Virus record (IMG/VR): IMGVR_UViG_3300032236_001457
Location: 1-64,000 of that record
Origin: a virus
Length of the DNA: 64,000 nt
Reading direction: 5' to 3' (one strand)
The translations under genes and the position numbers were made by a program. Every line of letters starts with the position of its first letter. Positions within the stretch are counted from its first letter, which is position 1. The notes beneath the pieces are model-generated. The model was not told where the DNA came from. It did no database searches and saw nothing but the letters and a program-made list of their open reading frames with translations. This document shows positions 1-64,000 of this stretch, one piece after another.

Positions 1-1638
1 AGCATCTTTATCTGCATCAGTTTTGCCAAACTTTCCAGCATCCATCTTTTTATCAATCTCACGCTTGGCATATCCTGGAACAACTTTGCGTAGAGTCTGT
101 GGTAAGCCTTCCGCCACACCTTGTTTTGATTTCAAGTAGGCTATGATTTTTTCAAGATTTTTAATTTTGACATCGTGTGCTCCATTGGCATTGAATTTTT
201 TATATTTGGCCAATTCTCTCTCGTAGTTTTTAATATTGGCAACGGTTCGGTCATCGCCTTCCGCCACACCTTGCTTTTTCTTTACAATTTCAAACTTGTG
301 CCCAAATTTTGTATGTAAAGGATGATCTAAGAATTTCTGTAGTTCTTCTTTAGCCCTTTGCCAAGAATCAAAACTGCCTGCGGCAAAGTCTTTTTCGCCA
401 TCGGGCTTAGTTCTAATAATGACATATTTTTCACCTAATTCCGGTCTATTCATGCCAGACCATGGACCTTTGATAACTTCACCTTCCGCCATACCTTGCT
501 CGTGTATGGTGTTAGGTTTGGGATTTGATAAGTTTTCAATAAATTGTAAAATTGCGTTATATTGTTGTGCGTATATTCTTGGCAGATCACTAGCCGCAGA
601 TTCTGGATCATTGTAAGCGTCACTGCCATCGTAAGCAGTATCAGTGATTGCTCTGGCTTCTTGGCTGCTTATTTTTTTACCAAGATTGTGAAGTCTAATA
701 ACTGCGTTATATAACCCTTCGGCCTTTGGGGCCCATTTTGCTACAACTTTTTGCCATTTGGGGCTTTGAGCAAACTCCTCGTCGTAATTACTGAGGCTAT
801 GCTCACCTATTAGGTCTTTGAATATGTTTAGTTCTAATAGTTCAAGAGCAGCATCTCCACTTGATATTAAGCCTTCCGCCACACCTTCATTCGACACACA
901 GTTGTTTACTCTAATGCCACCTTTGATCTTAGTGCCTTCTTTATGCTTGCCTTTCCAGCACTTGGCATCTAGGCGTTGCTTGACTTCCATCATGTTATTG
1001 CCGTGTGTTCGACACATACCACAATCTGGACAAGTCATTTCCATTTCCACACTTTCATTGTGCTTACGCTTACCGGCACAGTGAGCCCGCTGGCTAAATC
1101 CCTTTGGATGGCTACAGTTGATACTGTTCTTGTATTTTTGACTCCACCCTTCTCCCATCATTTCGTGTTGTAGGCTCTGTAGCACACTGTTGAGATAATC
1201 TGCTGCTTTAGTAATCTTGCTCTGTTGCCAAGCGTCTAGACCTTCCTCTTCACTCTTGGTCTTGATCATTGAGTGTAGTTGTTTGGCATTTTGGAAAATG
1301 CTGTGTAGTTCGCTGCCAGCCATGTTGATCTCATGATCCTGATTTTCAGCAAAGTCTTTATTCTTGTGTTTCTCGCCGCGAACCTGTTTGCTCTGTTGTT
1401 TGCGATCGGTATGCCGACCGCTACCTTTGGCTACTTTCTGAGCAGCGTGAGCAACGGGGCTACGAGGAGTAAGTTTTTGGTTAGCATCCTGGACTAGAAG
1501 ATTATCTCTGCGTTGAACCCCGCCTATTGGTTTAGATACAGAAGCAACACTTCCTGCGCTGGTTCCGCCCCCGCTGGCACTTTCTAAAACATATCTAGTT
1601 GTATCACCGTTGTTGATTTTTTTAAATTCTTTATTCAT
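1..1638 (-). CDS. Mosaic virion/head protein with QGVAEG repeats (C-terminus off the window)
   Basis: Open frame read from ATG at 1638 to the window edge: 546 residues visible, 3' end missing. Residues about 190-240 hold a Cys/His-rich patch (GFSQRAHCAGKRK and TCPDCGMCRTHG), a type I associate with T4-like virion proteins. The hexapeptide EGVAEG, QGMAEG, QGVAEG, QGVAEG starts at residues 251, 381, 456 and 506 and separates unrelated segments, so the protein looks like modules joined by a repeated linker. The linker resembles the T4 prohead-protease consensus (L/I)xE followed by a small residue. It overlaps the upstream 1635-1994 gene by 4 bp (ATGA). Function is unknown; a head-internal or scaffold-associated role is inferred. 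Confidence 0.8.
   Translation of the reverse strand, partial: MNKEFKKINNGDTTRYVLESASGGGTSAGSVASVSKPIGGVQRRDNLLVQDANQKLTPRSPVAHAAQKVAKGSGRHTDRKQQSKQVRGEKHKNKDFAENQDHEINMAGSELHSIFQNAKQLHSMIKTKSEEEGLDAWQQSKITKAADYLNSVLQSLQHEMMGEGWSQKYKNSINCSHPKGFSQRAHCAGKRKHNESVEMEMTCPDCGMCRTHGNNMMEVKQRLDAKCWKGKHKEGTKIKGGIRVNNCVSNEGVAEGLISSGDAALELLELNIFKDLIGEHSLSNYDEEFAQSPKWQKVVAKWAPKAEGLYNAVIRLHNLGKKISSQEARAITDTAYDGSDAYNDPESAASDLPRIYAQQYNAILQFIENLSNPKPNTIHEQGMAEGEVIKGPWSGMNRPELGEKYVIIRTKPDGEKDFAAGSFDSWQRAKEELQKFLDHPLHTKFGHKFEIVKKKQGVAEGDDRTVANIKNYERELAKYKKFNANGAHDVKIKNLEKIIAYLKSKQGVAEGLPQTLRKVVPGYAKREIDKKMDAGKFGKTDADKDA
107..888 (-). repeat. Four dispersed 17-bp repeats encoding (Q/E)G(V/M)AEG
   Basis: On the plus strand the 17-mer ccttccgccacaccttg appears at 107-123 and 257-273, with one-base variants at 482-498 (cac to cat) and 872-888 (last base c). 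All are in the same reading frame of the partial gene. Even third-codon positions are nearly invariant, which is more conservation than the peptide needs and suggests recent copying or DNA-level constraint. Confidence 0.85.
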
Positions 1639-1994
1639 GATTTCTTATTCCATTGTGATATGGGGCTCACTTTGTAAACATCTGACATTTCTTCACTGCG
1701 TTTGCTAGAGTGAGTTTTTCTGCTGTCATCACCAATTTGACCTGCGGCATATTTGATCATTTCCATTTCCGCTTCGGTATAAGGAGCCAATAGCGGATCT
1801 CCGGCGATATAACTGGTTGCCTTGGTAGGATACTCCGGAGCACCAGCAAGAGCAATACCCATTCTATAGTTTAGATACTGGTTGCCGGCATTCATGTTCT
1901 GATTGGAAAATGTTGTAACATTTTGAATGGCAGATTTGTGTTCGTCACGAATATTGTGAACACCACCTTCTGTAATAAATTCATTAGCTCTCAT
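1635..1994 (-). CDS. Hypothetical protein with capsid-targeting-like N-terminus
   Basis: 119 residues, not recognised as a known enzyme. It begins MRANEFITEGG, which resembles T4 capsid-targeting peptides (T4 Alt begins MELITELFDE, the internal proteins MKTYQEFIAE) and offers an I-T-E/G prohead-protease-like site after residue 9. The rest is polar with no obvious membrane segment. The start overlaps the transglycosylase stop (TAATG at 1994) and its own stop overlaps the next gene by 4 bp, so it is translated within the head-cargo operon. I infer an internal head protein; this is unproven. Confidence 0.75.
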   Translation of the reverse strand: MRANEFITEGGVHNIRDEHKSAIQNVTTFSNQNMNAGNQYLNYRMGIALAGAPEYPTKATSYIAGDPLLAPYTEAEMEMIKYAAGQIGDDSRKTHSSKRSEEMSDVYKVSPISQWNKKS

Positions 1995-2860
1995 TATGCC
2001 ATCCTTTCTATGGTGTTTTTGACATCACCTACGGTAAAATAACTTTTACCCTTACTTTTTCCAAATGCTGGATTCTGTTGCCATACTTTGGCTTTATTTA
2101 ATCCGAACACTTCGCCGCCGTTTGCATCGCCTAACACAAAATCATCGGGTTTATCTACAGCAGCAGGCATAAATGTCATCATGTAAAGATCACCAAGATC
2201 CATGCCTGGTTGAACACCGTTCATTTTATAAAATTTATAAACATAATCTAATTGTTCTACAGCAGACATTTGTGCTAGGGCTTGTGAAGTAGTTCCTAGT
2301 GATTGAGCAGTTTTTGGCATAAATTGAATTAATCCAACTGCGCTACTGGTGCCGGCACCCTGACTCGGGCTCATACTACCGCCTGTTTCGAACTTCATGA
2401 TTCTTAATAGATTCTTCGGATCCACTCCTAGTTTCTGTCCTATTAAATTTAGTTTTTCATTAAACTCGGGGCTTTGTATAGCAGCAAGATCTTCGGCGCT
2501 AGGCCCTTGGCCTCTTAGAGCATTTCTAGCAACGTCTGCCTGTGTAGATTTGACAATGGTAATATTTCCTGCTTTTAGTGCAGAATTTAATGCAGCTATA
2601 GTAGCATCATCGGCACGACTACTAGCTGGTAATTTATTTGCTGCCTGGAATTTTTTTAATGCCGCAGCAGTTAACGGTCCTAGTATACCATCTACCCCGT
2701 CTTTCTTAGGTCCGAGATTTCCGAGATCTTCTGGTGTAGCCGCACCCAATGCTAATAAGGCTTTTTGGACATCGGCAACTTCTACTCCCTTATTACCGAG
2801 AGGAGATGCCAACGGGCCGGCTACATTGGCCTCATCTTCGAATAATTCTCTTATACGCAT
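1994..2860 (-). CDS. Lytic transglycosylase with peptidoglycan-binding domain and capsid-targeting-like leader
   Basis: 288 residues. A leader MRIRELFEDEA is followed by a PG_binding_1-type repeat at about 28-75 (VQKALLALG, then DGILGPLTAAALKKFQ). An SLT-type lytic transglycosylase domain covers about 130-290, with the catalytic Glu in KFETGG (E158) and the typical SSAVGLIQFMPKTA segment. The family cleaves the murein glycan strand. The leader is very close to T4 Alt (MELITELFDE), so the enzyme may be packed in the head or the leader cleaved by the prohead protease; a baseplate or tail lysozyme role is the alternative. It overlaps the upstream Dps gene by one base. Confidence 0.85.
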   Translation of the reverse strand: MRIRELFEDEANVAGPLASPLGNKGVEVADVQKALLALGAATPEDLGNLGPKKDGVDGILGPLTAAALKKFQAANKLPASSRADDATIAALNSALKAGNITIVKSTQADVARNALRGQGPSAEDLAAIQSPEFNEKLNLIGQKLGVDPKNLLRIMKFETGGSMSPSQGAGTSSAVGLIQFMPKTAQSLGTTSQALAQMSAVEQLDYVYKFYKMNGVQPGMDLGDLYMMTFMPAAVDKPDDFVLGDANGGEVFGLNKAKVWQQNPAFGKSKGKSYFTVGDVKNTIERMA

Positions 2861-3300
2861 TATGCTCTCTTAATACTAGAACGTAAGAACCATGCGTGTT
2901 TTTTATGAGCATCCATACGCTCGGCTAGAAAATTGCTAAGTCCATGTTCTCCTGCCGCTTCGGCAGCATCGTAATTTTTCTTCAGCACAATCTGAATTTT
3001 CTCACTGTCCAATAACAGTTCTTGAATCATTTGTTGTAGATTAGGGACTTGATTTTCGTCTTCGATACGAGTCAGCATGTTCAGTGTGTGATAACTGGTA
3101 GGCATATATCCGCCTAACTTACGAACATTTTCAGCAAATGGATCTACAGCTCCATATACTTCTTCGTAGATCTCTTCGAACAGTTTATGATATTCGTAGA
3201 AATCTGGCCCTTCAACGTTCCAATGCATCGAATGGACCTTAACGTAGAAACTAAATGTAGTAGCAAACCCTATACGAGTAAGTTGAATTAATTTATCCAT
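2860..3300 (-). CDS. dps: Dps-like miniferritin
   Basis: 146 residues from ATG 3300; an in-frame TTG at 3324 would add 8 residues but overlap the upstream gene. The Dps/ferritin-like four-helix signature is clear: KVHSMHWNVEGPDF with H23 and H26, then YHKL (H38) and AVDPFAENVRKLGG with D53 and E57, the inter-subunit ferroxidase ligands. The family oxidises Fe(II) with peroxide and often coats DNA. It sits inside the head-cargo block, so it could protect packaged or injected DNA; that is inference. A late-promoter-like octamer lies just upstream (3308-3315). Confidence 0.9.
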   Translation of the reverse strand: MDKLIQLTRIGFATTFSFYVKVHSMHWNVEGPDFYEYHKLFEEIYEEVYGAVDPFAENVRKLGGYMPTSYHTLNMLTRIEDENQVPNLQQMIQELLLDSEKIQIVLKKNYDAAEAAGEHGLSNFLAERMDAHKKHAWFLRSSIKRA

Positions 3301-3307
3301 AGTATTA

Positions 3308-3315
3308 TATTTATT
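3308..3315 (-). promoter_or_regulatory. T4-type late promoter-like octamer (AATAAATA)
   Basis: The minus strand reads AATAAATA, one mismatch from the T4 late promoter TATAAATA. It ends 7 nt before the Dps ATG at 3300, so the predicted transcript would have almost no leader. Confidence 0.4.
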
Positions 3316-3316
3316 A

Positions 3317-3568
3317 TTAACCAAACCAAAGAGTAAACCATTCTGCGGTGCCAGGCTTTATGCCCTGTTCTCTTTGTATTTGTCCTTTATTACTGCCAAC
3401 AACCGGTGTTGCCTGTCGCGCTCTATAGTCTGCCAGTCGTTCTGCTGCCCCTAATCCTCCTAAACTGGCTGCGATTTTCAGTTCATGTATGGGATCATCA
3501 GGAGCGAGATAGCAGTCATCCGCACTGTCCTGTGGAATATTACTGCTGTCTATTCTGTATTGCTTCAT
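3317..3568 (-). CDS. Hypothetical phage protein
   Basis: 83 residues beginning MKQYRIDSSNIPQD. It is soluble, with a short helical segment HELKIAASLGGLGAAERLADYR and a Trp-rich end (TAEWFTLWFG). No family recognised. Its 5' end overlaps the 3' end of the 1212-residue fusion gene by 29 bp, and Dps follows directly. Being kept in frame between two well-supported genes is the main evidence that it is real. Confidence 0.65.
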   Translation of the reverse strand: MKQYRIDSSNIPQDSADDCYLAPDDPIHELKIAASLGGLGAAERLADYRARQATPVVGSNKGQIQREQGIKPGTAEWFTLWFG

Positions 3569-6500
3569 TTACTATAATCCGATTTATCAGTGAGGCCATA
3601 ATGTTTTCAACCGACTCGCTAACTGGAATATGGTTAGACATAGTTTGGCCAATTTTCTTTTCCTCTGGTTCTTTTTTTGGAGGAGGCATAATACGATCTA
3701 GTTCGCGTTGAAACTGTTCTCTATCAGGAGCACTTTTTTTACGCTCCTTTTCTAATGCACGATTTAATCGCACCTGTGCTGGACTAGGTGGTTTCCAGAA
3801 TGATTCCTGTGTGTCCTGCTGTTTATGATGCGACTTTTCTTTAACTAAATCTCTAAGTTCGGCAGTGCTGAGCAAGTTTAATTCGGCCACTCCATATCCT
3901 GTAGCACGAGCAACGGCCCGTATCAAACGCTGGCGCAGTTGATGTTCTTCGTCCTCCACAACTGATCTTTTTTGATTAATCAGTGCTGTTAGGATTCGTT
4001 CTGCTACTGTCTCTGGTTGTTTGGCAACAATACCCATGCCTTTACGGGTTATATCCATTAGATGTTCGATCCAATCTACACCGAGTTTATTAACATCGAA
4101 TGCCTTAGACCACACAGCCAACGCCTGTTCTGGAGAATCATTTTTCAAACTGTTGCGTAGCATAGTGCCACTAACCCCTGTACCTCTAGGAGTCACTTCT
4201 AAACTTACTTTAACATGCTCATAACCTGGAAACTTATTCACCGCCTTCATTAGTGCCTGTGGCATGTTTAGATTTTTGCGATCTTCGCCGACCATAATAA
4301 CAATGTTGTCATAGCGTGGCGGTTTGCCTGGCAACGGATTGATCAATTCGTGTTTGATCTTTTGTATTAGTGATCCACCTTCCTGTGTCACGGTGCTGAT
4401 ATTTTTAGCATACTGGGGATATAGCTTATGCCATGTTTCGACCTTAACGCTGGGTGGAATAGGATCGTCTTTGCCTTCTGCATTGCCAATGAACAAGTAA
4501 GGATCACCGTGCAGTTCTCGTGCCTTATCGACAGTGTAGTTCCATAGTTCCTGGTGTCCGCGATGACCGATAAAACTGCCAATAGCAACCACTGCGGTTT
4601 TGTTAGCGTTATCCCTACCGCGATCAGTGCGGGCTGCGGCTCTAGCAGCATTTTTAGTAGCGATAAGATCTTTTTGTTTTTGACTGGTAACTTTGATAGG
4701 ACCTAGTCTGCTGTTGATAACAATGCCTTCGTATTCTGTGCCTAGTTTATCTTTGCCTACAATGTTAGGATCTTCGTCGATGGCTTTTTCTAACGCAATT
4801 TGCACAGGCTTTAATTTTTCTTCAATCTGTTGGCGTAGATCCGCACTGGCACGATCACGCTTGCCTGCTGTGCCGCTGACAATGTCTTTGAGTTCATCAA
4901 TATTGTCTAATACATTAACAATTTCTGTAACATCTAGACCTTGCTTTTGAACCAGTCTATTGCTCATAAACATGACATTGTCGCTTTGTCCTAGTTCTGC
5001 TATCTGCTGAACAGCAGCATCACCATCGGGTATTTCTTCTCCAGTGCCGCCCTCTACGATGCGGAATGGAACCAATACCAGATCAATACCTTCGGGGATT
5101 TGATCATATTCAATACCTACAAACTTTAATCCACCCGATTCTGTTTTGGTGGCAAATGGTAGGAATAACACTTCGCAGGTAACCTGCCTATCTACTAAAA
5201 AGTCTGGCCCTAACGCACTATCCACCATTTTGATAGCAGTCATCATTTCGTTGAATAGTTTGTCAAAGTTGGCGGCACGACCTAACACTTCAGGATCGGT
5301 GGTTCCTTTTTGTTTGTGATAATCTAAGAATCCTGCTTTGTATTTGGGCTCAGTGCGACTGGTGCCCATAAACGGTTTGCCCTCGGCGTCCTTACCGAAG
5401 CGTCCACCGAATCCGTCGATCTTGACATTTAATGGAATATTTTGTAAAACAAATCTGCCACCCGAGTCCTGTAGTTCATCTACTAGGTCTAAAAAGTCTG
5501 CTGGTTTTAGATCACGCAGATGAGGCATGCCTTTGCGTAGTTGTGCCTTTACTGCTGGTTGTGGTTTATCTTCTTCTGCTTCTGCTAGACCCTGTGATGC
5601 CTTGGCTTTTTTCAATGCTGCTCTAGGTTGTTTTTCTTCAGGATGTTCTTTTTTGTATGCTTCAACTTCGTAATAATCATCTTCGTAAGATTTGGCCTGT
5701 GCTATGGCCTGTGCTCGCATACTGCCCATGCCCAATTTTTCCAACATGACATCGATAGCAGCAAATTTAGTTTGAGCATCTCTTACAGGATCATCTTTGG
5801 TAATCATTTGACCACCGATTTCAAAACAGATGTCTAGGAAATCTTGCACGATGCCAGGCTTTTGTTCAGGTTTAATATATTTGTTGATTAGATCCAGTGT
5901 GCCTACAAAACTCTGCTGTAGTTGGCTGTCGTTGCCTTGGGGTTTGCGACCAAAGACCATTTCAAATTGTTCAGCAAGACTTTGAACATAAGTTCTATCT
6001 TTAGGATCAACAGGAGTCACAATAGGAATGCCATCTCGACTGCTTTCACCAGTTTCTGGGTCGGTATAAGGCACATACTTTCTGCTCATACCTCCTCCCT
6101 GTTTGCTGGCCACAGCGAATGACAACATACTGACTTCGGTCGGTTCGGGACTGACCACCATTGCTCGTGCCTTGCCGCGTCCTTCCAATTTGGCTATATA
6201 AACTTGTTGTGTGCTAGCGGCCGCTGCCAATGCTCTGTAGAGATACTTGTGGAATACTCCTTTGATACCGGCAGTGATGTCATTCCAATCGCTGCTGTGG
6301 CTGAACGCAAACCACTCGTCTGGCGTGCCAGTTTCTTCACCGTATCCACCAAACTCAAAATCTATTTGTATTTTGAAAGGCGGATCTTCAAATTGAAAAA
6401 GTGCGTTAAATTGTGCAGAGCCTTTGCTAAACCCTAAACATTTGGTATCACCAATTTGTTTTCCGGTCATTGCAGTTAGGAATTCTTCTACTTCGGGCTC

Positions 6501-7178
6501 TAATTTAGCATCAACCTGTGTATCAATATCGCCTACCTTGGGTTTATGCTTGACAAACTCGTCATCACTAATACCGGAGGTATTAAAAAAGTGTAGGCTA
6601 CTACCGCTTAGAAATTCGCGACTTTGTAATAGATTTGCTGACCATAATGGCTTTTTATATTTGGCTTGAAATACGGCACTAATATCGTGTAGTAACTTGT
6701 TTAGTAGTCCTACCATGTATGTGCGATTATGAACCTTGAGATTAATTTCCTGTGCTTGATGTGGTTGAGTAGGATCTTCGGGATTAGGTAGTTCTAAATT
6801 ACCACCTTCCATTAATTTGTATTTGTCGCGTTTAATATCGTCGTTATAGTGATCATACAATCGATCACACAGTTCTTCACGCATTTCCAATGGGAATAGT
6901 TTTCCTAACTTGCCAGTTAGTTTATTTTTATGATAGAATTCTTTACAGCCCTTTTCTACCATAGGCATGAATTCTTTGACCAAACGACTTTTATTTTCTT
7001 TTTTGTTTTGTTGTTGACGTTGTATTTTCTTTGCTAGCGGATGAAAATATTCTTTATGTAGACGATCGTGCTCTAGTATGTATTGAAACAGTTCATTGGC
7101 TATTTCTTGATCATCATGATCTCGATCAGTTGGTGATTTAATATCTAGGCTTTTGCCAAAAAATTCAGTTAAAAACAT
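3540..7178 (-). CDS. Giant fusion: NTase-like + ATP-dependent ligase + cytidylyltransferase-like
   Basis: 1212 residues. The start MFLTEFFGKS resembles a capsid-targeting peptide. Residues about 150-330 hold a possible pol-beta-type nucleotidyltransferase motif (KVGDIDTQVD, 214-223). Residues about 540-840 carry nucleic-acid-ligase-type motifs: KIDGFGGR (586-593; motif I KxDGxxxR), CEVLF (668-672; motif III-like), EGIVIN (817-822; motif IV-like) and a Lys-containing IKVTSQKQK (motif V-like). Residues about 860-1045 form a cytidylyltransferase/NMNAT-type Rossmann domain with GSFIGHRGH (867-875) and SGTMLRN (1003-1009). Between the first two domains lies QGLAEAE (529-535), a near copy of the QGVAEG linker with an L-A-E/A cleavage consensus. 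I infer a packaged nucleic-acid repair or cofactor enzyme that may be cut into separate parts. Substrate unknown. Confidence 0.8.
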   Translation of the reverse strand: MFLTEFFGKSLDIKSPTDRDHDDQEIANELFQYILEHDRLHKEYFHPLAKKIQRQQQNKKENKSRLVKEFMPMVEKGCKEFYHKNKLTGKLGKLFPLEMREELCDRLYDHYNDDIKRDKYKLMEGGNLELPNPEDPTQPHQAQEINLKVHNRTYMVGLLNKLLHDISAVFQAKYKKPLWSANLLQSREFLSGSSLHFFNTSGISDDEFVKHKPKVGDIDTQVDAKLEPEVEEFLTAMTGKQIGDTKCLGFSKGSAQFNALFQFEDPPFKIQIDFEFGGYGEETGTPDEWFAFSHSSDWNDITAGIKGVFHKYLYRALAAAASTQQVYIAKLEGRGKARAMVVSPEPTEVSMLSFAVASKQGGGMSRKYVPYTDPETGESSRDGIPIVTPVDPKDRTYVQSLAEQFEMVFGRKPQGNDSQLQQSFVGTLDLINKYIKPEQKPGIVQDFLDICFEIGGQMITKDDPVRDAQTKFAAIDVMLEKLGMGSMRAQAIAQAKSYEDDYYEVEAYKKEHPEEKQPRAALKKAKASQGLAEAEEDKPQPAVKAQLRKGMPHLRDLKPADFLDLVDELQDSGGRFVLQNIPLNVKIDGFGGRFGKDAEGKPFMGTSRTEPKYKAGFLDYHKQKGTTDPEVLGRAANFDKLFNEMMTAIKMVDSALGPDFLVDRQVTCEVLFLPFATKTESGGLKFVGIEYDQIPEGIDLVLVPFRIVEGGTGEEIPDGDAAVQQIAELGQSDNVMFMSNRLVQKQGLDVTEIVNVLDNIDELKDIVSGTAGKRDRASADLRQQIEEKLKPVQIALEKAIDEDPNIVGKDKLGTEYEGIVINSRLGPIKVTSQKQKDLIATKNAARAAARTDRGRDNANKTAVVAIGSFIGHRGHQELWNYTVDKARELHGDPYLFIGNAEGKDDPIPPSVKVETWHKLYPQYAKNISTVTQEGGSLIQKIKHELINPLPGKPPRYDNIVIMVGEDRKNLNMPQALMKAVNKFPGYEHVKVSLEVTPRGTGVSGTMLRNSLKNDSPEQALAVWSKAFDVNKLGVDWIEHLMDITRKGMGIVAKQPETVAERILTALINQKRSVVEDEEHQLRQRLIRAVARATGYGVAELNLLSTAELRDLVKEKSHHKQQDTQESFWKPPSPAQVRLNRALEKERKKSAPDREQFQRELDRIMPPPKKEPEEKKIGQTMSNHIPVSESVENIMASLINRIIVNEAIQNRQQ

Positions 7179-7187
7179 AATTATTCC

Positions 7188-7607
7188 TTACCAAGCGCGA
7201 CACGACCAGTATCTAGCCTTAGTTCTAGGTCCGGGATTTTCACAATGATGGCGAGCTCTGAAACTTTTACGATGTCCGGGCAGATGTTTTTTAATGCTGA
7301 GTTTTTTATCACCAAAATTTACCTTTTTAACATTGCCTGTGCTGGGATCTTTTACATAGACCTTGCTTTTTTTAACATCGCCTTTCATTGGTTTGCCTAG
7401 AGGAACGGTGCGTCCATGGTATTTGGCTTCTTCTAAGGGAATATATGCTAGTGCTGTGGCATCTATAGCTAGGATAGGACCGTCACTTTTTAGGCCAATT
7501 ACGGTGGTTTCTAGAACAAAATCACCAAGTTCTAGTTCAAACACATCACCTTCTTGGATGGTTTCTTCAACGAAATCAAGTCCATCGAAAAGATCAACGA
7601 TACGCAT
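7188..7607 (-). CDS. Small virion protein with conserved SFRARHHC...SCRAW tail
   Basis: 139 residues. The N-terminus MRIVDLFDGLDF followed by ETIQEGD looks like a capsid-targeting peptide with an I-Q-E/G site near residue 19. The basic C-terminal module KSFRARHHCENPGP and ARYWSCRAW (two Cys) is a pattern I associate with T4-like marine phage proteins. The middle is beta-rich. A late-promoter octamer (7630-7637) and a Shine-Dalgarno AGGAG precede it, making it the first gene of the fusion/Dps/transglycosylase operon. A head-internal protein is the best inference. Confidence 0.75.
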   Translation of the reverse strand: MRIVDLFDGLDFVEETIQEGDVFELELGDFVLETTVIGLKSDGPILAIDATALAYIPLEEAKYHGRTVPLGKPMKGDVKKSKVYVKDPSTGNVKKVNFGDKKLSIKKHLPGHRKSFRARHHCENPGPRTKARYWSCRAW

Positions 7608-23297: not shown

Positions 23298-25751
23298 TTA
23301 TGTATTAATTTTAGCAGATAGAGCATCAACCTTGGCACTGAGTTCCTGAATAGCTTTAATTAATGGTGCTATAAGTTCTTCATATCCAATGCTTAGTACA
23401 TCATCCCCGCCTTTAATAGAGTGGTCTTGATATCCACCAAAATCTACACCTTTGTTGTCCATTACAGATTTAACTTCTTGTGCAATTAATCCATGATGAT
23501 ATCTGGTTCTAATCTTACTGCCATCATGCACGAGATTAGACATTTTTACTGACTCTTGCCAGGCCGACATAGCAGAGTTATATGCTTCTAATGCAGAGTT
23601 GTATTCGGCAGTTTGTTCTTCAGTAGGATCAACAGGCAACACTGGTTTGGATAGATCGGGTGCCGGTTGTTTATAATCTTCCCGCATATCCCATTTATAA
23701 TCTACTGGTCTTAGTGCTAGAATAAAATCTAACCCTAATTGTGTGTCACGAATTTCTGTTTTATCTCGTTGATCCGATCTGATTGACAATGCTGCGTAAG
23801 CATATGGAGTTGTGCTGGAATCTCCAAGTTGAACCTGATTATCCCCTGTAACCGCTGTATTGGCTCCTACTCCAGTACAATTATTATATGCAGTCATTGA
23901 GTACATGCTACTGAATCCCAATGCGGTATTATAAGAACTGACAAGATTGTTTTGTAAGGCGCCTACTCCGAGTGCTGAGTTATTACTTCCATTAGTTAAT
24001 GAATATAATGATTTATATCCAACTGATGCATTATTAGCACCGCCAATAAAGGTGAAAAGTGATTGAACTCCTACTGCTGTATTCTTATCCCCAGTTGTAG
24101 TTGTTGATCCACCGTATAATGATTGGTTACCTACTGCTGTATTATTGCTAGCTTCTGAATAGTATCCAGCACTGCTGCCTACAAATGTTCCGTTAGATCC
24201 TGAAACATTAGACAGTCCGGCATTCATTCCTATTCCTACATTATCTGATCCACTTGTAGAATTTCTAAGAGAAGAAGATCCGCCTACTGCTGTATTATTT
24301 ACACCGGTTGTTAGTGCTATAAGTGCATTAGCACCTATTGCTATATTAGAAGAATCTGCTGCTCCGCTAGCACCACCGAGTCCGATAGCAATAGCATTAG
24401 CAACAGTTAATGTCTTATTTCCAGAACTCCATCTAAGTCCTGAATCGCCTGTTAATCCTGATCCATTTCCATAGGCTACATAGCCGCTAACAAGAGCAGG
24501 TCCTGAGCTACCTGCTCCACTTGGGCCGCTTGGTCCCTGTGGTCCCTGCGCTCCAGTATTACCTTGTGGACCCTGTGGTCCTTGTGATCCGGCAACTCCT
24601 TGTGGCCCGGTTGGTCCTGAACTGCCTACCCCACTTGGACCCTGTGGACCAGTTACTCCTTGTGGCCCCTGTGGACCTTGCACACCACCGACTCCAACTC
24701 CTGTTGGTCCTAGCGGCCCTTGTGGTCCTGCTACGCCTTGTGGGCCTTGCGGTCCAGCAACTCCTTGTGGTCCTTGTGGCCCGGAACTTCCTGCACTAGC
24801 AGCCAATAGATCGCTACCGACACCAGTGTTAGCGGACGACAGATCGATGAATACACCTCTATTACTACCGCCTGTTTCAAAAATTCTTAATTTATTTCTA
24901 AAGATATCTATAGTAACACCAGTATCAAGTGTGGTGTTGGTAGCTGCTTTGTTTAATCTTAATTCACCACCTTCGTCTCCGGATTGGCTAGAAGAATATA
25001 AAAATGGAGTTGTTAGTAACCCACTAAACGGTCTGTAAAATAGTCCGGCGTCGACGGCTATGTCATTGTATGCATTAGCACTGGCAGACATTGTAACATA
25101 GAGATCGCTGTTGGCATTGCTTTCTGCAGTATATATCTTAGTTGTTTTATCTGCATTACCTACAACTACAGTGGATGTATTGACCCATGTAGCAGTGCTG
25201 GCATTGCTCTGTAAAATATATCCGGCAGACCCGATAGGTATAAAAGCTGTTGTATTAGTAGCACTCTGTATAGGAATGCTTCCACCTGTGCCACCTGCAA
25301 TATTAGCAGGAGTTGATGGGCCGCTCGGTCCCTGTGGTCCTTGAACACCTGCTCCTGTCGGTCCAACTGGTCCTTGTGGCCCTGTTGCTCCTTGCGGTCC
25401 TGTTGCTCCTTGCGGTCCTTGTGGCCCTTGTGGCCCTGCAACTCCTTGTGGTCCTTGTGGTCCAGTTACTCCTTGCGGTCCCTGTGGTCCAGTGACACCC
25501 TGCGGTCCTTGTGGCCCTGTAACTCCTTGCGGTCCCTGTGGACCTGTAACTCCCTGCGGTCCTTGTGGCCCAGTTACACCTTTTGGGCCTGTTGGTCCTA
25601 CTGGTCCGGATGTTGCTAATAACGAAGCGGTTTGTGGTACTGTTAGATATTGATAAACAGCAGAATCCTGCACAACAAATTTAGTTTCGCCCTCAGTGGG
25701 ATTGGTCAGTTGTGGCAACGAAGATATATTGATGTCAGGGCGGAATGTCAT
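23298..25751 (-). CDS. Collagen-like tail fibre with S74 autoproteolytic chaperone
   Basis: 817 residues. An N-terminal attachment domain (about 1-55) precedes [12 protein letters not shown] collagen repeats. A beta domain and a second GPQ block follow, then a 250-residue stretch of NNTAVG/NSALG-type repeats (trimeric beta-helix). The C-terminal peptidase S74 domain starts near [10 protein letters not shown] (Ser of the self-cleaving Ser-Lys dyad) and ends in a helix ([19 protein letters not shown]). S74 domains trimerise and then cut themselves off. The start sits 5 nt after a late octamer, suggesting a leaderless transcript. Confidence 0.93.
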
Positions 25752-26150: not shown

Positions 26151-27044
26151 TTATGTTACATAAAAAACAATTCTACCTTGGCGACCTTGTTGACCATGCC
26201 TTGTTCCGTTGCCACTAGCTGGACCTTGCCCACCTCGACCGCCGCCGCCGTAGTAAGTTGGAAGTGTGCCATAATCAGTGCTCCCAAAATTACCACCTTG
26301 CCCACCATCGCTTGAATAATAAGAGTAAGTTCCACCGGCTAAAGTATAGGTACTGCCAACTCCGCCTTGACCTGCGTTGTTAAGCGTATCATATCCAACT
26401 CCACCGTTTCCGCCACCACCGCCGCCATTACCTGATCCGCCGTAATCCCCGCCGGCTCCTCCAGAATTACCATTTCCGCTATTACCACCGGTGCCTGTTA
26501 AATAGACTCCATTAACAGACGAAACTGAACCATATGTTCCGCCATATCCTCCTGTACAAGATACACTGCCTCCGCCGGAGAATCCTGACATACTGCTGGC
26601 ACCGCCTTGGGATCCATTACCTACTGCATTACCGTATGCCCCTCCGTCGCCTACTGTTAAACTTAAACTGCTGGTTCCTGACAATGAAAGAGAGAAATAA
26701 TAAGCCTGACCGCCACCGCCGCCTCCCCCTCGTGAAGGAATAGTTCCGCCGGTATTATTTGCATTTGATGCACCGCCCCCGCCACCGCCGCCCGCAACAC
26801 AAATTGCTTCTATAGTGCTAGCACCGCTAGGCTTGGACCAGCTAAATGTGCCTACGGTAACATAATCATATAAAGTAGGAGTAAACGCACTCTTCCCTAA
26901 AAAATCCTGCATACTGGTAGGCAAAGGATTTAATCCGGCTAGGAAAGATGCATATGCTAGCCCTCCGGATAATCCAGGTCCGACCGCTGGAAACTCGGCC
27001 TGTATCGCTAATAAATCAATCGGTAATGAATTAGTTAATGCCAT
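26151..27044 (-). CDS. Glycine-rich tail-fibre adhesin (gp38-like tip)
   Basis: 297 residues. A short N-terminal domain (about 1-60) and a strand segment ([20 protein letters not shown]) precede [10 protein letters not shown] and many GGGG blocks separated by variable loops over residues 80-290. This pattern matches glycine-rich adhesins such as those of T-even phages, where polyglycine helices display variable loops that bind the receptor. It overlaps the upstream collagen-like fibre by 14 bp, suggesting a matched fibre/tip pair. Confidence 0.82.
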
Positions 27045-29436
27045 TTATGCTAGCTTTAATATTATCTAACTCTTTTTTAAGTTCTTTGATGGCTTCAATT
27101 AGCAATCCAGTAATATTACCATAAGCCACTGATAGATATCCATTGGTATTTTCTTGCACGACCTCGGGAATTATTGTCTGTATCTCTTGGGCAATAACTC
27201 CGATATTTGTCTTGCCATCTTGAAGACTGCGATAATTTACTCCCCTTAATTGTAGAACTTTTTCTAAAGCATCTTCAATGGTAGTAATATCGGTTTTTAA
27301 TCTTTGATCAGATGTAGCAGTAACGTTAACAAAACTAGGGCTATCGGTAGTAGCCACTCCTTGGTTCATTGCTAAAGCATAGGAATTACTAGGTCCTTGT
27401 GGTCCTTGCGGCCCAGTATTACCCTGCGGTCCCTGTGGTCCTTGTGCGCCAGTATTACCCTGCGGTCCCTGCGGTCCTTGTGCGCCAGTATTGCCTTGTG
27501 GACCTTGTGGTCCTTGTGCTCCAGTATTGCCTTGAGGTCCCTGTGGCCCTTGTGCTCCAGTATTGCCTTGCGGGCCTTGCGCACCAGTATTTCCCTGTGG
27601 CCCTTGGGGTCCCTGCGGACCGGCATTACCTTGGGGTCCCTGTGGTCCTTGTGCGCCAGCATTACCCTGTGGCCCTTGTGGTCCGGTATTTCCCTGTGGC
27701 CCTTGTGGCCCTTGTGGACCAGCATTACCCTGTGGCCCTTGTGGTCCGGTATTGCCTTGTGGTCCTTGTGGTCCTTGTGCGCCAGCATTACCCTGTGGCC
27801 CTTGTGGTCCTTGAGGGCCTTGTGGTCCTTGGGCACCTGCTCCACTTGGTCCTTGTGGTCCAGTAACTCCTTGTGGTCCAGTTGGACCTTGAACTCCGCC
27901 GATTCCGACTCCAGTCGGTCCACTCGGTCCTTGTGGTCCAGTTACTCCTTGAGGCCCTTGCACTCCACCAATTCCGACCCCTGTTGGCCCACTTGGCCCT
28001 TGCGGTCCAGTCACACCTTGTGGTCCTTGCGAACCTACTCCACTCGGTCCTTGTGGTCCAGTGACTCCTTGTGGTCCAGTTGGTCCTTGAACTCCGCCGA
28101 TTCCGACTCCAGTCGGTCCACTTGGTCCTTGTGGTCCGGCAACTCCTTGTGGGCCTTGCGCACCTACTCCGCTCGGTCCTTGTGGTCCAGTAACTCCTTG
28201 AGGTCCAGTCGGTCCTTGCACTCCACCAATTCCGACTCCAGTTGGCCCGCTCGGTCCTTGTGGTCCAGTTACTCCTTGTGGTCCCTGTGGTCCTTGAGCA
28301 CCTACTCCGCTCGGTCCTTGTGGTCCAGTATCCCCTTGTGGTCCAGTCGGTCCCTGAACTCCACCAAGCCCTACTCCTGTTGGCCCCACTGGTCCTTGTG
28401 GTCCAGTTACTCCTTGTGGTCCTTGAGCACCTGCTCCGCTCGGCCCCTGTGGTCCTGCAACTCCTTGTGGTCCGGTCGGTCCTTGCACTCCACCGATTCC
28501 GACTCCAGTTGGCCCTGCTGGTCCTTGCGGTCCGGTAACTCCTTGTGGTCCTTGAGCACCTGCTCCTGTAGGACCCGACGGTCCTTGTGGCCCAGTTAAT
28601 CCTTGTGGCCCAGTTGGTCCTTGCACTCCGCCGAGCCCTACTCCGGTCGGTCCTACTGGTCCTTGTGGTCCTTCTACACCTTGCGGTCCCTGTGGACCAG
28701 GATCGCCTTGTGCCCCTTGTGGGCCAGTTAATCCTTGTGGTCCGGTTGGTCCTTGAACTCCACCAAGTCCGACACCTGTTGGTCCTACTGGTCCTTGTGG
28801 TCCAGTTACTCCTTGTGGCCCTTGAGCACCTGCCCCACTCGGTCCTACTGGTCCTTGTGGCCCAGTTGCTCCCTGTGGTCCTTGAACACCTGCTCCTGTT
28901 GGTCCACTGGCTCCTTGTGGACCAGTTACACCTTGCGGTCCTGGATCACCTTGTGGTCCTTGCGGTCCTTCTACTCCAGTTGGTCCTGTATAACCTGTAT
29001 ATCCCTGCGGCCCAGATACTCCACTTGGGCCGCTCGGTCCTGTAACTCCTTGCGGGCCGGGCACGTTGCTAACTCCACTTGGTCCCTGTGGCCCGACAAC
29101 TCCCTGTGGACCTTGTGGTCCTGTAACTCCCTGTGGTCCTTGAGGCCCGGTAACTCCTTGTGGACCTTGTGGTCCTGTAACTCCCTGCGGTCCTTGAGGC
29201 CCAGTAACTCCCTGCGGTCCTTGTGGTCCCTGCGGTCCAGTTACACCTTGCGGTCCTTTCGGACCCTGTGGACCGGCTCCTCCGGAAACTACACCTAATA
29301 GTTGTGTAACTTGATCTGCGGTGATATATTGAGTCACTGCACTATCTTGTACAACAAATGTAGTTTCCGCAGTTGTAGGGTTATTTAAATGCGGTAATTG
29401 TACAAGATTAGGAGGAAATGGTGGTCTAGTAGTCAT
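27031..29436 (-). CDS. Long collagen-like tail fibre with S74 domain
   Basis: 801 residues. After an N-terminal attachment domain (about 1-55) almost 600 residues are G-P-Q type triplets in higher-order blocks such as [16 protein letters not shown] and [10 protein letters not shown]. The S74 chaperone begins at [10 protein letters not shown] and ends in a Lys/Glu helix ([17 protein letters not shown]). The first 40 residues resemble those of the 23298 fibre, so the two probably share a docking site. Repeat number is likely to vary among relatives. It overlaps the 702-residue gene by 11 bp. Confidence 0.93.
27420..29270 (-). repeat. Collagen-triplet coding repeats
   Basis: Nearly continuous Gly-Pro-X coding repeats with frequent synonymous changes, built from recurring 27-90 bp units. 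Such arrays contract and expand by recombination. A shorter array lies in the neighbouring fibre (about 24510-25600). Confidence 0.9.
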
Positions 29437-43335: not shown

Positions 43336-44120
43336 CTACTTCTGGAGTATATAAAATAACATTAAAAAATGATGGTAGAATTTATATTGGTAGTTCGGCA
43401 GGAATAGAGGACAGATGGAACTGGCACATTCGCAGACAGATCCAACTTATAGGTAAAATGATTGAAAAATATGGAAAAGAATCTTTTACCTTTGAAATTA
43501 TTGAAGAAGTTGAACCTGTTAAAGAAAAATTAATCGAACGAGAACAATTCTATCTTGATACATTACAGCCATTTCCTTGGGTTAATAACAACGGTTTTAA
43601 TTTGGCGCCAACTGCCTATTCACCACTTGGAATTAAACGATCTGAAGAAACTAAAAAGAAAATGAGCAGTTCATGGCATAAATCAAGAAATACTGTTGAA
43701 TATAAACAACAGGCAAGCGATAGAATTAAAGGTGATAAAAATCCAGCAAAGCGCCCTGATGTAGCCGCTAAAATATCTAAATCTAGGCTTGGACAAACTT
43801 GGGCCAACGATGCTGATAGAGTTGAGAAGCATCGACAGGCAAGACTAGGTAAAACTCATTCTATAGAAACTATAGAAAAAATGCGAATTTCTCAACAAAA
43901 AAACAAGACAAGATCTGATGCTGCTAAAGAAAAATTCTATCTCTCGCAAAGAACATTATACGAAATAACCAAGCCCGATCAATCTACATTTCAAATTTAT
44001 AGCCGAGAATTAAAAGAGTATTGTAAAAATAATAAACTACAATATTCTAATTTAATTACAACGGCCAAAACAGACAAAGTGTATAAGAAAGGTTGGAAGG
44101 CTCGAATATTAGTAGACTAA
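43329..44120 (+). CDS. GIY-YIG homing endonuclease (free-standing)
   Basis: 263 residues on the plus strand. N-terminal [20 protein letters not shown] gives GxY-x10-YIG, then the catalytic Arg region DRWNWHIRR and Glu in EREQFYLD. C-terminal NUMOD3-type repeats follow ([46 protein letters not shown]). It is a mobile element gene inserted between clpP and the next minus-strand gene and overlaps that gene's end by 4 bp. AT-rich relative to its neighbours, consistent with transfer. Confidence 0.92.
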
Positions 44121-44560
44121 TCTACTTTTTGATAAGTTTGTGCGAAGATATCTTTCTTTACTACGCCATAATCATTAGGGCCATGACGAACAATAACATC
44201 TTTGCCTGGATTATAGTGTAGCTTTTCTCCCCAGCTTGTGTCAACAGTTCCAACGTGATCTGCCAGTTTAGCTACTTTGATAATCTTTTTTGGAGTGCAG
44301 ATACCATATCCATGATCATCTTTGAGTTCTTTGAATTTTTCTGGACTAATTGGATATTTTTCTCCCTTTGGACCAGTCATAATGTAGTAACCCGCAGGAT
44401 ATTTTACAGGACCTTCTAGGGTATCAATAGTTCCTGGTTCAGTGGCAATGTTATAGTGTTCTTTGGCTGGCTTTTTATAAGTTTCGAATCCACCGTGTTT
44501 AAACCAATCATCGGTGATATTATCCAATGATTCCACAATATTAATAAATTCTCTAATCAT
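44117..44560 (-). CDS. Hypothetical protein with YIMTGPKGEKYP motif
   Basis: 147 residues. The N-terminus MIREFINIVESLDN resembles a capsid-targeting leader. A module PAGYYIMTGPKGEKYPISPE then FKELKDDHGYGI is of a type I associate with T4-like phage proteins (PGDYxxTGxxGExYP). A beta-rich second half follows. Function unknown. It overlaps the 132-residue gene by 4 bp. Confidence 0.7.
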   Translation of the reverse strand: MIREFINIVESLDNITDDWFKHGGFETYKKPAKEHYNIATEPGTIDTLEGPVKYPAGYYIMTGPKGEKYPISPEKFKELKDDHGYGICTPKKIIKVAKLADHVGTVDTSWGEKLHYNPGKDVIVRHGPNDYGVVKKDIFAQTYQKVD

Positions 44561-52097: not shown

Positions 52098-52694
52098 CTA
52101 TACTACTGGATCAGTTATGACTAGGGAATCGCCGCGTTTCATAATATTACTTAGATTCAAATCATCGTCGCCGTTGTAACTACTTAGATCTAGAATGGTT
52201 TCAAAAGCGGCCAAAAGATCAGGCCAATGTTCTTTTAAAAAGTCCTCATTCTCTGGCCAAAATATTTCTTCCCAACTCCTGCTGTTTAATTCAGGATCTA
52301 TATATTTGGCAAAAACAGGATCTGTTTTTGAGTTAAATGGCGTTAATCTTTCCATTCTAACTGCATAGGCTGTGGGACTTATACGCCACATCTTACCATA
52401 TACTCTAGGCAAAAATGGATTTTTTTGATTGGCCACAACATACTTGAGCCAATCTACACCCCCGGTGTGTTCAGTAAATACTTTAAGAACATACTCATAT
52501 TTTGGATTAGAGTATACTAGAGAGAACATACCACTACCCAACAGCGTCCAACCAAGTTTTTCTAAATGAGTTGATAAATTCTCTTGTTCCTTTTTTCCAT
52601 AGAATTTATCATTTAATCCAGGATCGCTGCCAAGTTGTTGTGCAGCCTGAAAAGCAGGATGTTGTTTATAGCCAGTTAGTTCATTTATTCTCAT
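52098..52694 (-). CDS. Kinase-like protein with capsid-targeting-like leader
   Basis: 198 residues. Starts MRINELTGYKQHP (leader-like). A glycine-loop LLGSGMFSLVYS and Lys in YVLKVF (K71), hinge-like AVRMERLTPF, catalytic-loop-like DLNLSNIMKRG and DP in ITDPVV resemble the protein/aminoglycoside kinase fold, compressed, with a DFG replaced by TDP. It could be a phage kinase that modifies host factors. A late octamer ends 5 nt before the ATG. It may be packaged like T4 Alt; unproven. Confidence 0.68.
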   Translation of the reverse strand: MRINELTGYKQHPAFQAAQQLGSDPGLNDKFYGKKEQENLSTHLEKLGWTLLGSGMFSLVYSNPKYEYVLKVFTEHTGGVDWLKYVVANQKNPFLPRVYGKMWRISPTAYAVRMERLTPFNSKTDPVFAKYIDPELNSRSWEEIFWPENEDFLKEHWPDLLAAFETILDLSSYNGDDDLNLSNIMKRGDSLVITDPVV

Positions 52695-62799: not shown

Positions 62800-64000
62800 T
62801 TAGCAGGTGCAATTTTTCCTTGTTGCCGGTGTTTTACAAGTGCTACTATTACAAGGGGTTGAGGTACAATCATTAGTGCAACTAATACCGGTTAAAATTC
62901 CAGTAGGACACGCAGAATTGTTAGAGCAATTAGCGGCATCTAAGTTAATTTGTAAAATAGGATCACCAGCAGGAACTTGAGTTTTATCAAACTCGGGACT
63001 TAATATTGCTATAACCAAAGTAGTATCTCTTACTACATCGTTGGTATCGGTAATTCTTACCAACGAATTAAAAATCTGATAACTACTACTAATTGAGTCG
63101 GCAATACCTCCAATTTGGCCACTAGTCATGATATAAAAGCCAGGGGGTAATGGATTGATAATTTCTACATGTTTGGTAATTTGAGGGTTGTAAATTTGTC
63201 CTATTATTTTGTTAGAACCAACGTAGGTATGAAACTCGTAGTAATCTAGGTCAATACTCTCATGTAGTAGTTTATTAATTAATGTAGAAATACGATTTGT
63301 AGAATTGGCATATTTAGGATCTGATAAATCCATCAGACCTCGACGAAGCATACTAATTTCTGACAACTGAAAAATGGATCCGGGTTGAAACACTCCTGGC
63401 TTTGTATTTCCACCAAGAAGTATATCTGATGTATTATACGCCAATACACAGCTATGAATTGCTGCCGATATACTAGTTCCTGAACAATATCCATAACTTC
63501 CATCTAATGCTGCTACCCAAATTTGCTCTCCCGGAGCCCATCCATTTAGCTGACCGCTGTTAACTGTATTGGCAGTATTACTAATCACCGATGAATTAGA
63601 ATAGTTTGAAAAATCGCTAGGTTCAAAATTGAGACCATATGACCCAATGGTCAATACTTCGGGCATGGATGCTGGAGTTACTGTTTCAATAGGCACTCCG
63701 CTATTGCCAGCTGATGCTACAACAGAAATTCCCTGACTAATTAATTTTAGAAACTTGCTTTCGATATAGCTATTTTTAGCAATGTGCCAGCTACAATTTA
63801 ATATAGCAGCCTGGTTATTATTATTTGAAAAATCCCCTAAAATAGAATCTAGAGCATTCAACATATCACTTTGTTTTGTTGGTTGATTTTTATCAAATAT
63901 TTTTACAATTTTCAAAGTAGCATTACTTAGTCCACAGGTTTTTCCTGAAATAATACTAGCGATAGCAGTGCCGTGGCCACTTGTATCAGTATAATTATCT
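62800..64000 (-). CDS. Subtilisin-family serine protease with Cys-rich tail (N-terminus off the window)
   Basis: 399 residues visible; start beyond 64000. The S8 blocks are SGHGTAIASI (catalytic His), VVASAGNSG (oxyanion Asn) and YGYCSGTSISAAI (catalytic Ser near 63473). The Asp block is outside the window. After the protease domain (about to residue 300) comes a C-terminal region ending ACPTGILTGISCTNDCTSTP then CNSSTCKTPATRKNCTC, with about 10 cysteines in 48 residues. The tail looks like a peptide that could be a disulfide-rich or modified product. No signal seen in the visible part. Confidence 0.82.
   Translation of the reverse strand, partial: DNYTDTSGHGTAIASIISGKTCGLSNATLKIVKIFDKNQPTKQSDMLNALDSILGDFSNNNNQAAILNCSWHIAKNSYIESKFLKLISQGISVVASAGNSGVPIETVTPASMPEVLTIGSYGLNFEPSDFSNYSNSSVISNTANTVNSGQLNGWAPGEQIWVAALDGSYGYCSGTSISAAIHSCVLAYNTSDILLGGNTKPGVFQPGSIFQLSEISMLRRGLMDLSDPKYANSTNRISTLINKLLHESIDLDYYEFHTYVGSNKIIGQIYNPQITKHVEIINPLPPGFYIMTSGQIGGIADSISSSYQIFNSLVRITDTNDVVRDTTLVIAILSPEFDKTQVPAGDPILQINLDAANCSNNSACPTGILTGISCTNDCTSTPCNSSTCKTPATRKNCTC

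Follow-up and report, generated by a model that had tools for sequence, protein, structure and literature searches.

Known systems of head cargo

The internal proteins of bacteriophage T4, which act as anti-restriction and host-takeover agents, share one common leader. The T4 protein Alt is cut by the prohead protease gp21 at ITE and LTE, and proteases of this kind cleave after glutamate; in SPN3US and phiKZ, head proteins are cut by the prohead protease and then ejected (PMC5694885). Mass spectrometry of S-CREM2 cyanophage virions detected S-adenosylmethionine (SAM) hydrolase, kinase, cytidylyltransferase, Cas9 and several proteins of unknown function, and the authors caution that abundant proteins may be carried over (PMC10665884); the cytidylyltransferase (T4-GC190) was also detected in virions of S-SM1 (PMC3037559). 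The polyvalent proteins of phages have several domains each and are believed to enter the host along with the DNA, and for part of them, not all, embedded peptidases were proposed to release the domains (Iyer et al., 2017; PMC5512222). Here we analyze a 64,000-base stretch of viral DNA (the window; positions 1-64,000 of the IMG/VR record IMGVR_UViG_3300032236_001457), the left end of which encodes a polyprotein divided by short repeated seams next to carrier proteins, i.e., proteins with T4-like N-terminal leaders.

We read this locus, with a probability of roughly two in three, as a source of shuffled head cargo, comprising polyproteins and carriers that would be targeted by leaders and cut by the prohead protease. 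A first-pass annotation had proposed T4-like targeting and cleavage of the carriers. Leaders, junctions, a capsid-like site, protease genes in relatives and the S-CREM2 virions speak for that proposal, while the assignment of the genes to a head block did not hold and the inclusion of a kinase-like carrier was not supported. The annotation overlooked the adjoining polyprotein with its exchangeable seams, and the targeting proposal, which has several independent but indirect lines of support, is most plausibly one element in a larger, modular system of processed cargo.

Compared with T4 IPI-III and Alt processed by gp21 (peptidase family S77), the locus has an N-terminal peptide of the same pattern, sites following the [LI]xE↓ rule (the arrow marks the predicted cut), S77 genes in relatives and diverse cargo behind a shared leader. 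It differs in the far larger number of carriers, some of them enzymes, in polyproteins whose internal sites are repeated, and in the exchange of modules at a seam conserved as DNA; packaging and cutting are predicted for it. The cyanophage virion proteins (S-CREM2 SAM hydrolase, kinase and cytidylyltransferase; T4-GC190) also come from T4-like phages and share MKxFxxFLxE-type starts, a related cytidylyltransferase-type domain and a DUF6321 protein with the present set, but those examined are separate genes without GVAEG arrays, and the papers do not mention a leader. As in polyvalent proteins, many disparate domains are joined in one polypeptide: Pfam matches in 61 seam-bearing open reading frames (ORFs) included GNAT, cytidylyltransferase, deaminase, 5'-nucleotidase and LysM domains, alongside modules of unknown nature. 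Unlike polyvalent proteins, the seam ORFs swap modules at a standard seam, these Pfam matches include no peptidase domain, and the sites fit a prohead protease. The ejection proteins of SPN3US and phiKZ are likewise head proteins cut after glutamate by a prohead protease, but that protease belongs to another clade with another motif (AxE in SPN3US), and no shared swappable seam is reported (PMC5694885).

Leader peptides

The four N-termini singled out by the first-pass annotation were confirmed, all on the minus strand (Table 1), and its two weaker ones, at 44560 and 52694, are also present. Two motifs were used, a loose one shaped by the four window sequences (^M.{2,4}[DE][FL][FILV].{0,4}[ED]) and a strict one derived from T4 internal proteins and Alt only (^M.{3,6}[FL][FIL].E). 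Over the whole source record, a virus fragment of 101,834 bases, the loose motif matched 7 of 134 gene starts against 1.2 expected from permuted N-termini. In related loci it matched 155 of 1,693 gene starts (9%) and 109 of 11,898 internal methionines (0.9%); against this internal-methionine rate the count in the record has a binomial p of 0.0003. The matches are clustered, as four of the eight left-end genes have them and only 3 of the 126 others (Fisher p = 2e-4, for a region picked post hoc). The rate falls with distance from a seam ORF, from 20% within 0.5 kb through 10% and 7% to 1.4% beyond 5 kb, and is 19% inside seam-bearing ORFs and 1.2% in head-gene regions. With the strict motif, 61 of 710 starts near seam ORFs matched versus 2 of 323 far from them (p = 2e-8). 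Such enrichment and clustering are consistent with short targeting peptides of the T4 type, such as MKTYQEFIAE and MELITELFDE.

The leader was found on many unrelated bodies across loci; it is present on standalone domains and usually lost once the domain is fused. Synonymous codon changes are free within leaders (63 examples), so it is the peptide that is under selection.

Carrier enzymes and predicted processing sites

The enzyme-rich nature attributed to the set was borne out, with a transglycosylase, a pol-beta-type nucleotidyltransferase, a probable ligase and a cytidylyltransferase among the carriers. The last three lie in one 1212-aa protein. Residues 125-533 have a pol-beta-type nucleotidyltransferase fold, with DNA polymerase beta as the top match (E = 0.002); residues 534-840 probably form a ligase, with ligase motifs (KxDG, EGxV and K) that do not vary across the alignment and weak fold matches to DNA ligases; and residues 845-1050 are cytidylyltransferase-like, with fold matches to phosphopantetheine adenylyltransferase and FAD synthetase and a distant relationship to the S-CREM2 domain (23% identity, pairwise E = 6e-5).

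Both invariant junctions of this protein, E124 and E533, stand at domain borders, E533 within a hypervariable linker. In six of the nine orthologs the nucleotidyltransferase domain starts straight after the leader, e.g., MILREFFKRTLLE↓GGNLEI; in the window and in two relatives a further module with a leader precedes it in the same protein, and the E124 site is retained. In two loci (L128, L132) that preceding module is encoded separately and has a leader of its own. The bodies of the 119-aa and 139-aa proteins bear leaders when standalone. Fused to protein ends, they often begin after [LIVM]xE↓[AGS] (L004, L196, L116, L047, L122); fusions in L186 and L039 lack this site before the body, and in L130 and L131 the leader persists inside the fusion. 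Fusions of the 119-aa body with other proteins occur in L004, L130 and L131; the 139-aa body is attached to ORF ends in L196, L116 and L047, and the IQE↓G of the 139-aa protein is kept in L123 and L124. As sequence motifs, the junction sites fit the gp21 rule of cutting after [LI]xE.

A further candidate site lies near the N-terminus of the polyprotein, where RYVLE↓SASGGGTSAG aligns with KYLAE↓SATAGATSAG of the capsid protein of a relative, G002 (score 74, shuffle maximum 44, p < 0.001). The corresponding capsid-protein region reads LxE↓[SN]A in seven relatives, and its position and the analogy with T4 gp23 suggest that it is the capsid maturation site. An S77 (gp21-type) protease gene was found in 7 of 22 related records, in G002 together with gp22 and gp23.

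Leaders on cyanophage virion proteins

Five non-structural virion proteins of S-CREM2, read here from the genome, start with MKDFDSFLEE, MKDLHSFLTE, MKRFDAFLTE, MQTFSMFFSE and MKNFSSFLTE, i.e., with the pattern MKxFxxFLxE. A T4-derived motif, set after inspection, matched 5 of 28 non-structural virion proteins, 0 of 24 structural ones and 3 of 167 undetected proteins (p = 0.002). The T4-GC190 relatives in P-SSM2, S-SM2, Syn19 and S-RIM2 have the same start, so that the virion cytidylyltransferase family carries the leader in five cyanophages; in P-HM2 and Escherichia phage G17 the enzyme lacks it and starts at the catalytic domain. S-CREM2 gp137, which was detected in virions, carries DUF6321, as do three of the 61 polyproteins scanned and the S-SM2 protein related to the window polyprotein. 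No paper linking such leaders to cyanophage virions was found in the open-access literature.

Seam polyprotein and module exchange

The N-terminal part of the polyprotein is kept in relatives and partly in cyanophages; it is followed by four [EQ]G[VM]AE↓G seams and exchangeable modules. The four seam copies are nearly identical as DNA, and the wider consensus across polyproteins is (K/E/Q)GVAE↓G. The seam 17-mer CAAGGTGTGGCGGAAGG occurs in at least 119 IMG/VR stretches, compared with 49 for a synonymous control 17-mer built from commoner codons. Among the matches listed, the longest ORF translates it as QGVAEG every time (161 of 161), and the ORFs hold as many as eight seams; the median length of inner modules is 79 residues. 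In loci fetched by protein similarity, independently of the 17-mer, the seam alanine codon is GCG in 57 of 69 cases (background 7.5%, p = 2e-52) and the valine codon GTG in 51 of 57 (background 13.6%, p = 8e-38), and the possibility that seam DNA conservation is an artefact of the exact 17-mer search was rejected on these data. Where the same protein motif occurs within the conserved 1212-aa gene, its DNA has drifted (CAAGGGTTAGCAGAAGCA, CAAGGAGTAACAGAAGCA). The 70 matches of the 17-mer in cellular genomes were dismissed as chance, since they are spread over many taxa, form no arrays and have mixed frames. No obvious inverted repeat was seen by eye in the seam GGTGTGGCGGAAGGC, and hydropathy around the seams gave no clear linker signal apart from the motif itself. 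Most of the sequence in the 61 scanned ORFs has no Pfam assignment, and an open-access literature search for GVAEG returned no relevant paper.

Modules change partners. When homologous modules of different loci were compared, the neighbour differed on 112 of 128 testable sides. The window module at 258-109 has 98% DNA identity to two places in one other locus (L062) with unrelated flanks, the similarity breaking at the seam, and the last module of the window recurs with hardly a change in 11 further loci, the flanks differing in each. This pattern points to exchange of modules at a common short DNA site, as for integron-like cassettes.

Table 1. Features of the left end of the window and one distant candidate; arrows mark predicted cuts
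Feature	Position	Strand	Remark
Seam polyprotein of 546 aa, continuing past the record end	1-1638	-	overlaps gene 1635-1994 by four bases
Start of widespread module GLPQTLRKVVPGYAKREIDKK..., interrupted by the record end	1-108	-	
Seam 4, QGVAE↓G	106-123	-	
Exchanged module GDDRTVANIKNYERELAKYKK...KQGVAE, 150 nt	109-258	-	
Seam 3, QGVAE↓G	256-273	-	
Seam 2, QGMAE↓G	481-498	-	
Seam 1, EGVAE↓G	871-888	-	hotspot; close relatives L123, L124 and L284 each continue differently
Capsid-like candidate maturation site RYVLE19↓SASGGGTSAG in polyprotein N-terminus	1507-1605	-	local alignment to G002 capsid protein
119-aa protein, leader MRANEFITE↓G	1635-1994	-	orthologs keep leader when standalone
Transglycosylase with peptidoglycan-binding domain, leader MRIRELFEDE↓A	1994-2860	-	L284 ortholog starts MRIREILSED
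Dps/ferritin-like protein without leader	2860-3300 (or 2860-3324)	-	conserved same-strand neighbour of seam polyproteins
1212-aa carrier, leader MFLTEFF (N-terminus MFLTEFFGKS)	3540-7178	-	
Junction LAE533↓A of 1212-aa carrier	5577-5588	-	[LIV]xE↓A in 9/9 orthologs
Junction LME124↓G of 1212-aa carrier	6804-6815	-	[LI]xE↓GGN in 9/9 orthologs
139-aa protein, N-terminus MRIVDLFDGLDF, start MRIVDLFDG, candidate cut IQE19↓G	7188-7607	-	
Weak candidate MIREFINIVE↓S, PGDYG family	44117-44560	-	homologs in two seam-type loci, L190 and L195

Proposed mechanism and alternatives

In the proposed mechanism, the products of the block would be packaged into the phage head and probably injected. As in T4, the precursors would enter the scaffold core by means of a short N-terminal helix (M-R/K-x-x-E-F/L-I/F-x-E). 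Once the shell is closed, an S77 prohead protease of the gp21 type would cleave behind the glutamate of [LIV]xE↓[AGS] sites. Leaders would thereby be removed and the 1212-aa protein split into its separate domains, and the polyprotein would be divided at all of its GVAE↓G seams, giving modules of some 50-200 residues. Recombination between seams would swap modules in frame because all seams are nearly the same DNA, so that lineages could reshuffle their cargo quickly. We see an even chance that this amounts to an in-frame cassette system for virion cargo, in which an element of about 18 nt serves as the exchange joint in DNA and, when translated, as the prohead-protease cut site; a swapped module would thus be targeted, released and delivered automatically.

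Several observations weigh against the targeting and cutting of this cargo. Neither S77 nor gp23 was found on the 101.8-kb record or in many related records, although records without S77 are read as fragments because the two genes are missing together. Three of the four window leaders fail the strict T4-only motif, which only MRANEFITE passes; the others are supported via their orthologs. The first motif, with an acid before F/L, matched 0 of 28 S-CREM2 non-structural virion proteins, which makes the S-CREM2 test one after the fact. The seam GVAE has V rather than L or I three positions before the cut, and the conservation of seam DNA could be explained by recombination alone. Finally, it is from sequence patterns that we infer packaging, cutting at these sites, injection and the roles of the modules.

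The main rival is a polyvalent protein that stays uncut. The seams would then be recombination joints or flexible linkers only, the polyprotein a multidomain virion or cytoplasmic protein, and DNA identity the driver of shuffling. It would account for the DNA-level conservation of the seams, something that recognition by a protease would not by itself demand, and known polyvalent proteins do join many domains in one injected chain (PMC5512222). Still, we regard it as unlikely, as [LIV]xE↓[AGS] holds in spite of DNA drift at both invariant junctions of the 1212-aa protein and recurs at the putative capsid maturation site and many fusion borders, and the Pfam matches of the 61 seam ORFs include no peptidase. 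The shortness of many modules, together with the cutting of T4 core proteins at the same type of site and the departure of their fragments (PMC5694885), would suit another explanation, by which the polyprotein and leader proteins are scaffold-core components, like T4 gp22, gp67 and gp68, cut to peptides that exit the head, with nothing injected. Conserved enzymes among carriers and modules, and the retention of leader-bearing enzymes in S-CREM2 virions, make this quite improbable. We find least probable that the N-termini are ordinary amphipathic starts, or reflect shared gene-start ancestry, with no link to capsid targeting: several carriers are indeed mutually homologous across loci and some short N-termini match only weakly, but the variety of bodies behind the leader, its free synonymous change, its presence in the five cyanophage cytidylyltransferases and absence where that enzyme starts at the catalytic domain, and the same kind of leader on S-CREM2 virion proteins all argue otherwise.

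If the processed-cargo reading is true, uncultivated T4-like phages carry arrays of cargo in cleavable, swappable polyproteins and can shuffle the proteins they deliver while keeping targeting and processing. Injected phage proteins could then be sought in metagenomes by three markers, namely leaders, [LIV]xE↓[AGS] sites and GVAE↓G seams, and the proteins found with them would mostly be of unknown function.

Gene neighbourhood and other features

The genes had been described as a head block, but the neighbours are a Dps, a ClpA-like protein, a DnaJ and a deformylase, plus a DNA polymerase in relatives, and the genes are not part of a head gene cluster; Dps was identified by Pfam, and the ClpA-like protein, deformylase and DnaJ by sequence reading and synteny. 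The head genes of G002, with the S77 protease at 93 kb and gp22 and gp23 after it, are about 63 kb away from its carrier gene, which occupies roughly 26-30 kb. Of 90 seam loci that are 8 kb or longer, 43 have the leaderless Dps/ferritin-like gene next to a seam polyprotein; all 48 of 48 such genes are on the strand of the polyprotein, at a median distance of 145 bases.

The kinase-like protein at 52694, also put forward as a carrier, has no leader-bearing ortholog and one weak match, and its place in the set is not supported. In another locus, L097, a cytidylyltransferase-like ORF ends in a weak relative of this protein (52098-52694; E = 3e-6), an arrangement that recalls the kinase and cytidylyltransferase pair of cyanophage virions.

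Outside the window, the record contains an ORF similar to the RuBisCO large subunit at 88871-90094 on the minus strand (L002:5871-7094; Pfam RuBisCO_large, E = 6e-38). Within it, a subtilase-family (S8) ORF was identified at 62800-63915 (E = 4e-10), and two tail-fibre-like ORFs (23298-25751 and 27031-29436) have long collagen-like GPQGPQG repeats.

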